A stretch of 30,896 nucleotides of DNA, from contig JAJRTK010000239.1 of assembly GCA_024278345.1 (NCBI GenBank), positions 1 through 30,896 on the forward strand, read 5' to 3'. Within the stretch, counting starts at the first letter, position 1. The number at the start of each line of letters is the position of its first letter. Origin of the DNA: a bacterium. GTDB lineage: Bacteria; CSSED10-310; JAJRTK01. Below the pieces are notes generated by a model. That model was not told the origin of the DNA, searched no databases, and saw only the letters and a list, made by a program, of their open reading frames with translations. Positions 19,562 to 26,919 of the stretch are shown in pieces. Position numbers and translations under genes: made by a program.

Positions 19562-19651
19562 GGAGAGATGTCCGAGTCGGGTTGAAGGAGCACGACTGGA
19601 AATCGTGTGGGTGGGTAAACTGCCTCGAGGGTTCGAATCCCTCTCTCTCCG
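19562..19651 (+). tRNA. tRNA-Ser (anticodon GGA)
   Basis: A 90-nt class II tRNA. The acceptor stem GGAGAGA pairs with TCTCTCC, and the discriminator is G. The anticodon stem CACGA/TCGTG encloses the loop CTGGAAA, giving anticodon GGA. A long variable arm (GTGGGTGGGTAAACTGCC region) is typical of serine tRNAs, and the T arm is GAGGG-TTCGAAT-CCCTC. The 3' CCA is not encoded. It is followed 52 nt later by the SRP RNA, a pairing known from many bacteria. Confidence 0.95.
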
Positions 19652-19703: not shown

Positions 19704-19834
19704 CGGCTCGTGCTATAGATGCCTGGGTCTCGCGCAATGAGAGGCTGTGAACCTGGTCAGGCGGGGAACCGAGCAGCCATAAGCGGAATCTCTCGTGTGC
19801 CGCGAGGGCGCCTGGGCATCTATAGGACGAGCCG
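19704..19834 (+). ncRNA. ffs: Signal recognition particle RNA (4.5S type)
   Basis: RNA scaffold of the signal recognition particle; binds Ffh and guides membrane-protein ribosomes to FtsY. The apical domain IV is clear: ACCTGGTCAGG...GGGGAACCGAGCAGCC (about 19750-19778) contains the conserved GTCAGG and GAGCAGCC sides of the Ffh-binding loops. The ends CGGCTCGTGCTATAGATGCC and GGCATCTATAGGACGAGCCG pair over about 20 bp with one mismatch. The length of about 131 nt fits a rod-like bacterial RNA without an Alu domain. Exact ends are inferred from pairing. It shares a promoter with tRNA-Ser and ends at a strong terminator. Confidence 0.9.
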
Positions 19835-21570: not shown

Positions 21571-22881
21571 ATGAAGAAAAACTATGTCATCGACACGAAT
21601 GTACTCCTCCACGATCCCGAGGCGATCTTCAAGTTTCAAGATAATGATGTCATCCTCCCCATCCAGGTGATCGAGGAGATCGACCACTTTAAACGGGAAA
21701 TGAACGACCTCGGCTATTCGGCCCGGCAGGTTGTCCGCCACCTTGACGAGTTCCGTAAAGTAGGGAGTCTGTCCCAGGGAGTGCCTTTGCCATCTGGCGG
21801 CCGCCTCAGGATCGACTTGAGCGTCACGACCCTTCCAGCGGAGCTCTCCATGATTCGAGGCAATCCCGATAACTACATCTTGGCTCTGGGGCTGGAGCTC
21901 CAGAAAAGAGCACCGGATGTGCCCATGGTACTGGTGTCAAAAGATGTCAACATGCGAGTCAAAGCCGACGCCATGGGCCTCCGCGCCGAAAACTATGAAA
22001 ACGACAGGGTTCCGTCAGCCGATGTCTACAGTGGAAGCTTTGAGCTCGAAGTGACGGACGAAGACTTCGACCTCTTTCGGGAACAGGGGGATTTGCCGTT
22101 TGAAGCCGACGGGCATTTGCCCAACGAGTGCGTCATGCTTCGGCAGGGGGATGGCGTGCGCCAAACTCTTCTTGGCCGCCTTTCGCCCGACAGAAGCCGG
22201 ATTCGGCGGCTCTATGACACGAAGCGAAACTTCTGGGGATTGCGGGCCAAGAATCGGGAACAGTGTTATGCCCTGGACCTCCTCCTCGACCCCGAGCTCA
22301 GCCTCGTCACCATCGCCGGAAAGGCAGGCACGGGGAAAACCCTTCTCGCAGCCGCGGCGGGCCTCCACATGGTGACGGAAGAAAAGCTCTTCCAGCGGCT
22401 CCTGATTTCCAGGCCGATCTACCCCATGGGCCGGGATATCGGCTATTTGCCGGGAGCCGTGGAGACCAAGCTGGCGCCCTGGATGCAACCCATCTATGAC
22501 AGTATCGGACTGCTCATCGAAATGCGCTACGGCAAGCGATCAAAACGAAAAACAGAGGATCTGGCCAGTTCCGGTAGGTTGGCCATCGAGCCTCTGACCT
22601 ACATCAGAGGCCGGAGCATCCCCAACCAAATCCTGTTGGTGGATGAAGCCCAAAACTTAACTCCCATCGAGGCGAAAACTGTTCTGACCCGCGCTGGGGA
22701 TAATACCAAGGTGGTCTTCACGGGGGATCTGTCTCAGATCGACAATCCCTACGTCGATAGCCAATCCAACGGGTTGAGCACAGTGGTGGATCGCTTCAAG
22801 GGCCAACCTCTGGCTGGGCATGTGACCCTGACAAAGGGGGAGCGGTCGCCCCTGGCCGAGTTAGCCGCCAACGTCCTTTGA
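21571..22881 (+). CDS. PIN-PhoH protein (PhoH2/YlaK type)
   Basis: RNA-acting PIN nuclease domain fused to a PhoH-type ATPase; family members have been reported as RNA helicase/RNases. In 436 residues the PIN domain (about 1-135) begins NYVIDTNVLLHDP with the first catalytic Asp at 8, and further acidic residues lie in IEEIDHFK and LVSKDVNMRVKAD. PhoH (about 230-436) has Walker A AGKAGTGKT (about 249-257) and Walker B LLVDEAQN (about 354-361), then VFTGDLSQID with the expected spacing. GGAG lies six bases before the ATG. It is 57 nt after the propeller gene; co-transcription is possible. It is the last protein gene before the 1.4-kb non-coding region. Confidence 0.93.
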   Translation: MKKNYVIDTNVLLHDPEAIFKFQDNDVILPIQVIEEIDHFKREMNDLGYSARQVVRHLDEFRKVGSLSQGVPLPSGGRLRIDLSVTTLPAELSMIRGNPDNYILALGLELQKRAPDVPMVLVSKDVNMRVKADAMGLRAENYENDRVPSADVYSGSFELEVTDEDFDLFREQGDLPFEADGHLPNECVMLRQGDGVRQTLLGRLSPDRSRIRRLYDTKRNFWGLRAKNREQCYALDLLLDPELSLVTIAGKAGTGKTLLAAAAGLHMVTEEKLFQRLLISRPIYPMGRDIGYLPGAVETKLAPWMQPIYDSIGLLIEMRYGKRSKRKTEDLASSGRLAIEPLTYIRGRSIPNQILLVDEAQNLTPIEAKTVLTRAGDNTKVVFTGDLSQIDNPYVDSQSNGLSTVVDRFKGQPLAGHVTLTKGERSPLAELAANVL

Positions 22882-23178: not shown

Positions 23179-23207
23179 TTGACATCGCTTGATTCCGTTG
23201 CTAAAGA
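23179..23207 (+). promoter_or_regulatory. Sigma70-type promoter ahead of the large RNA candidate
   Basis: TTGACA (23179-23184), a 17-nt spacer and TAAAGA (23202-23207), preceded by an A/T-rich stretch (TTAATAAGTTGATAAAAAAAG). Predicted start of transcription is near 23213-23216. No reading frame with a ribosome site follows on this strand. Confidence 0.65.
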
Positions 23208-23213
23208 GTGAAG

Positions 23214-24258
23214 AGAGGATGAAGAATCCTGGAGGCACCGGCACTCAAGGGCGTCGGGCTCCGGTCGGTTGCTTGGTTGTATGGAGCGGTTGGGAGGCCA
23301 ATCGGACAATAGTTGGTGACATCTGTTGGTCGGTGAGTTTATCTATCACTTTATGCGGCGGGCGACCTCACTGGCGGCGTTGGGAAGGTGCAAGGAGTTC
23401 AGGAGGGGCGGCAGCCTTGAGAGAGGTAAGCCGGCTCCGGTGTTCGTGAGACCCTGAAGGTCAGGCGGCGCTTCGGTTTTTCTGGGAGCTTGCTCTTGGG
23501 TAGCTGCGGCGGCGGGGAAGGCCATGAGGGGAGGAATCGTGAAGGCGGTTCCAGGGCACTGGAGAGGAAACCCCTGGAGGGCGGAAAAGCCAGGAGGGCA
23601 GCGGCTTGGCGTGGGCCGTAAATGGATGGGCCGCGTCGAGTGTCGGATCTTCGCGAGGAGCAAAGCCTTGAAGGCGAGGCCAACCGCTGGTTTTTTGATC
23701 AGTGGGGGCCAACGGCAGGAGGGCAACCGGGCTCGGAAGGGCACGAAGGCTTCGCGGAGGGGAAAGGCCCTGAAGGTGAAAACCCCATGAGTGTGACCGG
23801 CATGAAACAAGGCCGGAGGGCTTTGAAGGAAGGAAACCGTCAAGAGGGTGAGAAACCCTGGAGGCGGAAGGTGTCGGGTGAGGCAAGCCCGAGTTGACCG
23901 GGCCTTCGGAGCTGGGGGCGCTGAAGGGGAAGGAACCCTATGAGAGGGACTGTTGGCTTTGGCCGATAGGCCGTTGGCGAGTTTGGACTCTGAAGAAGAG
24001 GGTAAGCTCAAGGGCGGAGAGGGCATTCTTTTTTGAAAGGATGGCTTCACGGCGAGTTGCGGAAGACCTGGACACCGCGAGAGCGGTAGAAAGGGATCGC
24101 TCAACCGATACGGCGATACCTGCTCGTTGGAACCGCTGAAGGGCGCTTGACTTCATGAGAGGCATTTGCGTGGGGCCGGTGACGGTTCCGCAAAAGGCGC
24201 GCCGGTGGTGAATCTCTGGAAGGGAAACTCCGGGAAACTTTGTCCTCGCCATTTTTTT
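23214..24258 (+). ncRNA. Candidate large structured non-coding RNA, about 1.05 kb
   Basis: Begins just after a near-consensus promoter and ends at a T7 tract (24252-24258), with no credible plus-strand gene. The strand is purine-rich, full of GGAGG, GAAGG and GAAA, unlike the neighbouring genes. Visible hairpins include AGGAT-GAAGA-ATCCT (23216-23230), CGGTTGG-GAGG-CCAATCG (23287-23304) and GACC-CTGAA-GGTC (23450-23462). Others are CCAGGG/CCCTGG (23551-23577), CCGCTG/CAGTGG (23684-23705), CCGGC/GCCGG (23797-23816), TCGGG/CCCGA (23874-23892) and ACCGC-GAGA-GCGGT with a GNRA loop (24074-24087). ATCGC/GCGAT (24096-24117) and GGAACCG/CGGTTCC (24129-24189) complete the set. TGRAGG recurs many times. 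It does not show the signatures of RNase P RNA, tmRNA, rRNA or group II introns. Ends are estimated. Many GC-rich sequences form some hairpins, so structure needs covariation. Confidence 0.5.
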
Positions 24259-24301: not shown

Positions 24302-25546
24302 TCAGGCGGTGAAGCGGATTCCTTCCACTAGGATGTGTGGCGCCTGGATGCCGAGGGTTGGCGAAAACTGGCCGTCGGACATGAAGGTGACCCGATCTTT
24401 CTTGAAGAGCTCGAAGATATTGGCGGTCATGTTGAGATTCTTGACTCTTCCCAGGATCTTGCCCTGTTCCACGTAGAGGGCGTCGAGGCCGCAGGTGAAG
24501 TCCCCCATGGGATTGGTGGTCCTAGCCACCTCCCAACAGTGGCGTACGATAACCGCCCGATCCAGGCCAGTCAGGCAGTCCGCCAGAGTTTGGCTGCCCG
24601 GCGGGATCAGGAGGGGCGTTCGTTGGAAGCGGCGGCGCGGGATACCGGTAGCGAGGCCGGAAGCCTCGTGTCCGCATTTCCTGCCGTATTCAAGATCGTA
24701 GAATGCGTCCACCAGCCGTCCCCGGGAGACAAGATCTAGTTTTTTTGCCGCCACACCCTCGATGTCGAATCCCCTTGTTCCCAGGGATTGCGGGTCAATA
24801 CTCAGATGGAAGTCCGGAGAGAAAAACTCTTGTTCGAACCGGGACTGGAGAGGAGACCTATTTTCGTAGATCTCTTTTGAGTCAAGCGCCTGCCAGAACC
24901 CTGTAAGGAACGACGTGTGATTGTGTGCCAGCACCACCGCCGGATAAAGGCCGTTGGGGATCTTTCTCACGGGAAGCTGTCGCTCGATGCCCTCTAGGAC
25001 CGAGAAGAGCTTCTCTCGTCCCGGCTCCCCGTGGACCTGGTGATCAAACAGTTCCCACTGGGAAAAGAGATCGTTTTCGGTGGAGCGCTCCATGTCAATG
25101 GAGTAGATAAGAAAGTGCTCCAGCCCGTGGTGCTCGACGCCGTGGCTGTTTTGGTATCGCCGCTCCGAAGTCGTTCTGTGAGCTTTGATTTCTACCGAAA
25201 ACTCGGGATGGCTTTTCTTCGCCTTGGCAATGAAGTCTTCGCAGAGCTCCCGGATTTCGCCATCCGTGATTTTGGGCACGGCTTGATTGCGGGGCTCGTT
25301 GTCACTGGATCCAATTTTGGGGAAGGCGTAGTCGATCTTCCTGCTGAAGGGGCAGAGCTCGCGTGCCTGGACCGTGAGCTTGTCGGTGTCGGAGAGAAGT
25401 GTTCCTTCCGCCAACCCGATGCGCTGGTCCTCAAGGACCGATACGAGCTTCCTGGTAGTTTCCTTGGAGATCCCGCCGCGGAAACGGCCGCCGGTGAACT
25501 GAAATTCATCGGTCTGGACTCGGGTCGTGTAGATTGCTCGATCCAT
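24302..25546 (-). CDS. tldE: TldE/PmbA-family protein
   Basis: Inactive-site partner of the TldD metalloprotease. The TldD/TldE heterodimer degrades unfolded peptides and matures microcin B17 in E. coli. This 414-residue protein lacks the HExxxH motif, as expected for TldE. It shows the family fold markers: an N-terminal domain to about residue 190, then GTRGFDIEGVAAKKLDLVSRGRLVDAFYDLEYG (about 250-285), TNPMGDFTCGLDALYVEQGK and a C-terminal SDGQFSPTLGIQAPHILVEGI. The ATG at 25546 overlaps the tldD stop (TGATG) and has GGAGGAG upstream, so the pair is translationally coupled. Confidence 0.9.
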   Translation of the reverse strand: MDRAIYTTRVQTDEFQFTGGRFRGGISKETTRKLVSVLEDQRIGLAEGTLLSDTDKLTVQARELCPFSRKIDYAFPKIGSSDNEPRNQAVPKITDGEIRELCEDFIAKAKKSHPEFSVEIKAHRTTSERRYQNSHGVEHHGLEHFLIYSIDMERSTENDLFSQWELFDHQVHGEPGREKLFSVLEGIERQLPVRKIPNGLYPAVVLAHNHTSFLTGFWQALDSKEIYENRSPLQSRFEQEFFSPDFHLSIDPQSLGTRGFDIEGVAAKKLDLVSRGRLVDAFYDLEYGRKCGHEASGLATGIPRRRFQRTPLLIPPGSQTLADCLTGLDRAVIVRHCWEVARTTNPMGDFTCGLDALYVEQGKILGRVKNLNMTANIFELFKKDRVTFMSDGQFSPTLGIQAPHILVEGIRFTA

Positions 25547-26919
25547 CAGCGGTCTCCTCCCACCAGGCAGTGACGAATACGGATGTGAGGTCCTCCGAAG
25601 GAGATGGGAAGGGGCGCCTGTCCGTTTTTGCCGCACCCACCCATGCTGTCGGGGGTGAAAAAATCGTCACCCACGCCGTCGATGGCCCCGAGTGTTTCAA
25701 AAAGGTTCCCTAGAAGAGAGATATTCCGAACGAGCTCCCCAAGGCGTCCCTTCCGGATCCGCCGGCCATAACGGGCGAAGAACTGAAACTTTTCTCCGTC
25801 CGTGGAACCTCCCGCGGAATCGACGACGTAAATACCATCGTCAATGTCGGCGATAAGATCATTGAGACTACTTGTTCCAGGTGCGAGGGCCGTGGTCCGC
25901 ATCCGGACGATGGGCGGGAACTGGCAATTGATGGCCCGGGCGTTGCCTGTGGGCTCTTCGTTCAAGAGTCCGGCGGTTTCCCTGGAATGGAGATGGCTAC
26001 AAAGAACCCCTCTGTCAAGGAGCATGGTTTCTCGGGTCCGAACACCTTCGTCGTCAAAAACTACGTAGCCGCGGTTGCCAGGATGTCCACCGGAGTCATG
26101 AATACTGACGATGGGCTTGGCAAGCTGCCGTCCAATGCGCAGCACCTTGGCCTGGTCGGGTTTTTCCGCGAAGTGGTCTGCTTCCATGGTATGGCCGAAG
26201 GCTTCATGGGTGAAAAGCCCTGTCATGTCGGGATTCAAGACGACATCCCGGTGTCTGCTTTTCACCGAATCCGCCTCGGCGAGGTCATTGGTCGTGGCGA
26301 TGTGGTTCCGGACCTTCTGGTCGAGCCGTTTCATGTAGTTGAAGGTGTTGCTGGACCCATCACTCAGATGGTTTCGGACGATCACTTCGCCCTTTTTCGC
26401 GATGACCACCAGGGTGGCAGCGCTGTCTAGGAGGTCTTGCCGGATCAAGGTTCCCTCGGAATTGCCGAAGACCACGGTGCGAGCAAGATCGTAGTAGTAA
26501 GCAAGAACATCGACGACCTGCTTGCCAAACCCAAGCGCCTGGCTCCGCCACCCAAGAAGGTAGTCCAGTTTTTTCTGGAGAGGCACGTCATCCGGATGCG
26601 ACGAGGTGACGACCCTGTGGTCTTCTTCCACAACGGGGACAGGTGCCAAGATTGATCGTCTGCCTCGACCCTGCTTCGCCCATGCCAATGCACGCTCCAC
26701 GTGGCAGTCCAGATCATCGAGGGACTCGAAGCTGGAAAAACCCCATCCACCTTGGATCCAGGCTCGTACGCAGCCTCTGGACGCATTTCTTCTGAGCACC
26801 TCCTGGAGTCCCGTCTTGTCGGTTTGGAGCCGGAGCATCTGGTTCTCTTCCATTCGGACTTCCAGGTAATCGGCCCGATGCTTGTGCCGTCCAAGGAGGT
26901 CTCGCACAATGTTCTTCAC
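25546..26919 (-). CDS. tldD: TldD metalloprotease
   Basis: Zinc-dependent peptidase subunit of the TldD/TldE complex in the cytoplasm. The 457-residue protein contains the family metal motif HEAFGH (238-243), followed by TMEADH. A C-terminal Cys in GGCGKNGQ (about residue 433) probably completes the site. The Gly-rich strands DSGGHPGNRGYVVFDDEG and PTGNARAINCQFPPIVRM are typical. The start is GTG at 26919, with AGGA eight bases upstream. It is first of the pair, coupled to tldE. Its 5' end faces the 6S RNA gene, so the AT-rich 55-nt gap must hold promoters for both directions. Confidence 0.93.
   Translation of the reverse strand: MKNIVRDLLGRHKHRADYLEVRMEENQMLRLQTDKTGLQEVLRRNASRGCVRAWIQGGWGFSSFESLDDLDCHVERALAWAKQGRGRRSILAPVPVVEEDHRVVTSSHPDDVPLQKKLDYLLGWRSQALGFGKQVVDVLAYYYDLARTVVFGNSEGTLIRQDLLDSAATLVVIAKKGEVIVRNHLSDGSSNTFNYMKRLDQKVRNHIATTNDLAEADSVKSRHRDVVLNPDMTGLFTHEAFGHTMEADHFAEKPDQAKVLRIGRQLAKPIVSIHDSGGHPGNRGYVVFDDEGVRTRETMLLDRGVLCSHLHSRETAGLLNEEPTGNARAINCQFPPIVRMRTTALAPGTSSLNDLIADIDDGIYVVDSAGGSTDGEKFQFFARYGRRIRKGRLGELVRNISLLGNLFETLGAIDGVGDDFFTPDSMGGCGKNGQAPLPISFGGPHIRIRHCLVGGDR

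Follow-up and report, generated by a model that had tools for sequence, protein, structure and literature searches.

A large structured RNA, about 1,033 nt long and so far undescribed, is very likely encoded in the window analyzed here (the whole 30,896-nt stretch of contig JAJRTK010000239.1), a conclusion reached without transcript data. Comparison with homologous loci shows the gene boundaries, a conserved fold and the absence of any conserved neighbour that would make the RNA a leader. An earlier note, made from the letters of the window, had proposed a large, ornate and unrecognised non-coding RNA with its own promoter. This proposal is supported by conservation, by covariation and by the lack of a protein family or Rfam match, and every check able to refute it that could be run (conservation beyond the genome, covariation, protein families, Rfam) came out in its favour.

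Promoter, boundaries and composition of the RNA gene

The features of the locus are listed in Table 1. The promoter is made of a -35 box TTGACA (23179-23184), a spacer of 17 nt and a -10 box TAAAGA (23202-23207). It was skipped by our consensus promoter scanner because this scanner requires T as the final base of the -10 box. Its score is 9/12, and the fraction of control windows scoring as well or better was 0.01. The assignment is supported by the homologs, since in most of them a comparable element, TTGAC(A/T)-16/18-TANNNT, ends 4-8 nt upstream of the 5' arm of the closing helix; in locus L209 it is a perfect TTGACA-17-TATAAT (12/12).

Table 1. Features of the RNA locus and its neighbours (positions in the window)
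Feature	Position	Strand	Basis
PIN-PhoH (PhoH2-type RNase-helicase) gene, possible partner	21571..22881	+	Pfam PF13638 (PIN_4), PF02562 (PhoH)
Sigma-70-type promoter TTGACA-N17-TAAAGA	23179..23207	+	sequence; in most homologs, an equivalent element with equal spacing to the 5' arm
Large structured non-coding RNA, ~1,033 nt	23215..24247	+	z -5.0, homologs, covariation; start and end inferred
Closing-helix 5' arm GAGGAUGAAG	23215..23224	+	best helix beside the T-run, restricted end-to-end search
Conserved block GUGUCGGAUCUUCGCGAGGAGCAAAGCCUUGAAGGCG	23640..23676	+	alignment with L089
Conserved core, basis of models R1-R3	23707..23872	+	A5 covariation
Hairpin CCGGC..GCCGG, conserved loop UGAAACAA	23796..23817	+	A5 helix 2: 5/5 pairs double-changed, 100% of cells paired
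Double hairpin CCGUC-AAG-AGGG..CCCU-GGA-GGCGG, 3x3 internal loop (CANGA/UGNAG type)	23837..23867	+	A5 helices 3 and 4; six-lineage alignment; recurrent loop type
Hairpin, conserved loop GAGGCAA	23874..23892	+	4/5 pairs compensated across lineages
Hairpin, conserved loop AACCNAU	24096..24117	+	5/6 pairs compensated; loop kept in all lineages
Closing-helix 3' arm CUUUGUCCUC	24238..24247	+	partner of 23215-23224; 8 Watson-Crick and 2 G-U pairs
T7 tract, presumed transcript end	24252..24258	+	sequence; U-run shortly past the 3' arm in many homologs
TldE-like gene, convergent, 3' of the RNA	24302..25636	-	next gene in the window

The best end-to-end helix falls at the same two places in most homologs, often with T4-T9 directly past the 3' arm, and reaches 21 bp in L209 and 23 bp in G185. 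The 10-bp helix of the window does not score above chance on its own and is convincing mainly through its position. The T7 tract does not belong to a local hairpin terminator and sits, like those of other homologs, after the 3' arm, while several members of family f123 carry a separate hairpin terminator there instead of the U-run. The window copy shows every feature of the class, namely the core, a promoter preceding the 5' arm, a helix closing the 5' and 3' ends, and a U-run, and its length is in line with that of the homologs (996-1,123 nt).

Two variations of this layout were observed. In three loci of family f272 (L201, L202 and L209), the 5' end and the core are separated by about 410 nt rather than about 550 nt and the 3' half is longer, with promoter and closing helix kept, so there has been gain or loss of domains. 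In most f123 RNAs, a (T)TCTTTGA motif resembling boxA (columns 16-24 of alignment A6) is found just inside the 5' closing arm and is absent from the window copy. The boxA identity is inferred, and the motif could possibly recruit antitermination factors.

Across the region, GC skew ranges from +0.26 to +0.34, against about 0 in the flanking genes, and GGA, considered with a CsrA sponge in mind, occurs 43 times where a rough estimate from base composition expects about 34. The ORFs of the region, on both strands, gave no Pfam match. The claims of the earlier note for a promoter (upheld by sequence and by homolog comparison), for the absence of a credible gene, for purine bias and for a terminal T7 tract thus all held, and its ends were corrected to 23215 and about 24247-24258, both inferred.

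Homologs occur in at least four phyla

DNA searches within the phylum of the window genome recovered no relative. A search of named genomes for phoH gave 80 loci, of which L089 (JAHWKZ010000073.1, labelled Gemmatimonadetes bacterium) has the RNA directly after phoH (nhmmer E 6e-24); the PhoH proteins of the two loci are only 52% identical. A covariance model built from the window and L089 sequences (R1) was run on 386 genomes and matched G185 (E 2e-22), G179 (2e-19), G195 (2e-13) and G125 (5e-9). The window core, which helped to build R1, obtains 189.8 bits with it. Models of six (R2) and ten sequences (R3) added G386 and G464 (three copies) and, around G125, 22 of the 24 genomes in family f123, as well as three from f272 and a single one from f273. 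By our count, confident homologs are present in about 33 genomes including that of the window, mostly metagenome-assembled.

The RNA is present in at least four phyla, because those of the window genome, G185 and G195 (8, 5 and 2 genomes in the set) are distinct and the class of G179 alone comprises 80 genomes. Its distribution is patchy, as nothing convincing was recovered from the seven other genomes searched in the window's phylum; nor was the RNA found in these seven by synteny at phoH or tldE. Negative genome searches are weak evidence here: few candidates were scored per genome, and the first pass is lossy in GC-rich genomes. Blastn searches with three members against phages returned nothing, and those with two members against plasmids returned only a 39-nt chance match in a tssH gene. 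Viral pattern scans were empty or gave chance coding matches, and distant relatives could escape them.

Several further matches were set aside or noted separately. Weak matches in G413, G409 and G039 were rejected, being located within protein genes. The viral pattern GGATCTYCGNGNGGAGCAAAGC gave 12 matches, all in one coding family of T4-like appearance, and was attributed to chance; L138-L149 show this chance occurrence of a 22-nt RNA motif in a conserved viral gene. Some genomes have the RNA more than once, with two or three copies at unrelated loci: G464 (contigs C21, C8 and C202), G475, G487 and G493.

The fold is supported by covariation

On the plus strand, positions 23214-24100 fold with a minimum free energy of -390.9 kcal/mol, whereas shuffled sequences average -345.9 +/- 9.0 (z -5.0). 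Folding of the minus strand was no better than shuffled (z +1.56). All nine homologs tested gave sense-strand z values between -5.3 and -12.6.

In a ten-sequence alignment of the core, fitted to the covariance model (A5), both partners vary in 12 of 19 pairs; double-change cells number 36, compared with 10.3 +/- 2.4 after shuffling. Alignments fitted in this manner are biased to the structure of the model. Alignment A6, which comprises 18 full-length f123 RNAs aligned by MAFFT without structure fitting, is free of that bias. It holds 274 consensus pairs, 191 of them with compensatory changes, and 94.6% of cells are paired; double-change cells number 767, against 234.7 +/- 14.3 in shuffled alignments and 105-145 with slid partners. 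Against circularity, the structure was also predicted from ten sequences and scored on the remaining eight, where 88.3% of cells were paired and 153 of 293 pairs had double changes, compared with 37-46% paired for slid partners. Swapping the roles gave 87% paired, and over both directions slid partners gave 36-46%. An alignment of six lineages, the window among them, has compensatory changes in 115 of its 182 pairs.

Within the RNA, compensation is seen in 8 of the 11 pairs of helix 23648-23658/23750-23761, and the lineages share three conserved unpaired loops, AACCNAU, GAGGCAA and UGAAAYAA. A6 contains nine recurring 3x3 internal loops, the majority with the consensus 5'-CANGA / 5'-UGNAG. A strict count of hairpins flanked by UGNA/ANGA is enriched in the window and L089 (0/200 shuffles) and not in all homologs, so the claim for this loop rests on the A6 alignment. 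As a separate observation, the RNA of L172 has an additional core match of lower strength some 400 nt 5' of the core (L172:5947-6111), and so do those of G467, G468, G470 and G475, which suggests an internal duplication; in the window, a weak R1 match is located at 23514-23626.

Two local stems had been named in the earlier note. The GNRA-capped stem is present (ACCGC-GAGA-GCGGU, 24074-24087). The arms of the 7-bp stem, GGAACCG (24129-24135) and CGGUUCC (24183-24189), are complementary, yet this helix is probably wrong because the cross-lineage consensus pairs 24134-24144 with 24006-24016.

The RNA matches no catalogued family

Comparison of the window with Rfam 15 (4,227 families) by cmscan gave nothing at the gathering cut-offs and, at E up to 10, only chance fragments of human lncRNA, microRNA and sRNA. 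Nor did any Rfam family match the 25 homologous loci, which were searched with E limits of 0.5-1. Neither set matched the OLE, GOLLD, ROOL, raiA or HEARO models or any intron family, group II and circularly permuted group II (domain V/VI) included. The region has no match to RNase P RNA (RF00010), the genome's copy of which lies elsewhere (G000:C103:5730-6127, 311 bits). For tRNA and tmRNA, ARAGORN and Rfam found in the window only a tRNA-Ser(GGA) at 19562-19651; it is followed by a small SRP RNA (19721-19820), an ordinary arrangement. The earlier statement that the RNA is not recognisable as a known one therefore held. No description of it was found in the open-access literature, subscription papers being outside the scope of the search.

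Alternative explanations

The main rival is a large ribozyme, for example a self-splicing or self-cleaving RNA with distant kinship to group II introns or to the circularly permuted group II RNAs once called T-large. The size of the RNA, its elaborate closed architecture and the conserved unpaired loops have a ribozyme-like look. Against it, no Rfam intron or ribozyme matches the window or the 25 loci, and the RNA is flanked by a promoter and, in many cases, a U-run rather than by exons. We consider this reading unlikely.

It is also unlikely that the RNA is the partner of a PhoH2-type RNase-helicase, be it as substrate, RNA antitoxin or guide. PhoH2 proteins reportedly combine a PIN RNase activity with an RNA helicase activity (PMC7390352), and phoH lies immediately 5' of the RNA, in the same order, in the window, L089, G179 and G386. 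The last two, from one family, were located by the RNA model without reference to phoH, which makes a chance adjacency improbable (about 1 in 2,000 by gene count, our estimate). L089, found through phoH, is biased evidence. Against this reading, no phoH adjoins the RNA in G185, G195, G464 or the f123 and f272 loci. The RNA is absent from 79 of the 80 close phoH loci, which confines any partnership with phoH to a subset of lineages. The earlier idea of an RNA without protein partner may not hold, because a PIN-PhoH gene lies ahead of the RNA in these four genomes.

A divergent GOLLD, ROOL, OLE or raiA RNA escaping the Rfam models would share the size class and ornate style (PMC12286853). It is very unlikely given the absence of any match at the permissive thresholds above; moreover ROOL is common in phages (PMC12286853), whereas the phage and plasmid records held only the 39-nt chance match.

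A 3' UTR of phoH or a cis-acting leader is equally improbable and largely refuted. In the window the RNA does lie downstream of phoH on the same strand, but it has its own promoter. Neighbours vary between lineages, even within f123, and the next gene in the window is convergent, which together argue against a leader; the variable neighbours are in addition an argument for a trans-acting RNA. Finally, a protein-coding origin, whether a gene damaged by decay or frameshift or one on the minus strand (252-aa ORF), to which a purine-rich strand with long chance ORFs could point, is all but excluded by the lack of a Pfam match and refuted by the compensatory changes in the related family.

Proposed function and significance

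Our preferred explanation, a so far undescribed class of trans-acting structured RNAs of about 1.0-1.1 kb with a scaffold role, is likely as a whole, its function being inferred only. Transcription would start at the 5' closing arm from the sigma-70-type promoter. The RNA would fold into about 50 helices, with stacked short stems of 4 bp split by the purine-rich 3x3 loop; its 3' arm would pair with the 5' end, and a U-run would often end the transcript. The product is inferred to be a stable particle, either a self-assembling RNA or an RNA-protein scaffold, and not to act by base-pairing with mRNA. In some lineages, its loading, remodelling or processing may fall to the PhoH2-type RNase-helicase encoded next to it. 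The scaffold or particle action is inferred by analogy with OLE, ROOL and GOLLD, and could as well prove wrong as right: no function, partner or oligomer has been shown.

A bolder reading is that these RNAs form a broad new class of more than 1 kb, nearly universal in at least one family, acting as an RNA-only or RNA-scaffolded particle (a cage, an organising scaffold or a ribozyme) built of repeated short stems joined by a structurally uncharacterised 3x3 loop. We hold this more tentatively, and would not quite expect it to be borne out. The RNA is judged new in kind, having no homolog among the catalogued RNA families. The term "large ornate RNA" describes a group and does not define a family; if that group is taken as a kind, the window RNA is a new member of it.

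Outside rRNA and introns, very few bacterial RNA classes approaching or exceeding 1 kb are known, and most proved structurally remarkable. The present class is longer than OLE, has about 270 covariation-defined pairs, occurs in nearly all genomes of one family and is missing from Rfam 15. The alignment, gene boundaries and covariance model are ready for cryo-EM, probing and genetics, and the class gives a testable lead to the widespread and poorly understood PhoH2 proteins.

Comparison with known large RNAs

OLE is likewise a large, ornate, conserved and free-standing bacterial RNA (PMC12286853, PMC9723947), but it measures about 600 nt, is found mostly in Bacillota, and its covariance model does not match the window RNA. 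ROOL and GOLLD are also large and ornate without a known obligatory protein, and form homo-oligomeric cages; homo-oligomers have been shown for OLE as well (PMC12286853). ROOL often lies in phages or prophages near tRNAs, unlike the window RNA, which had no match in the phage collection searched. Circularly permuted group II RNAs (T-large) are structured RNAs of about 0.9 kb found in several phyla (PMC8637638); the class described here differs by its promoter, its frequent U-run and the lack of a group II model match. No similarity to rRNA was detected by cmscan, and the window copy is without the boxA-like motif. The arrangement of the gene nevertheless recalls an rRNA transcription unit, in which a flanking leader-trailer helix closes a long untranslated RNA, and the motif inside the 5' arm of most f123 homologs, if its inferred identity is correct, resembles the boxA of rRNA leaders (PMC10250234).
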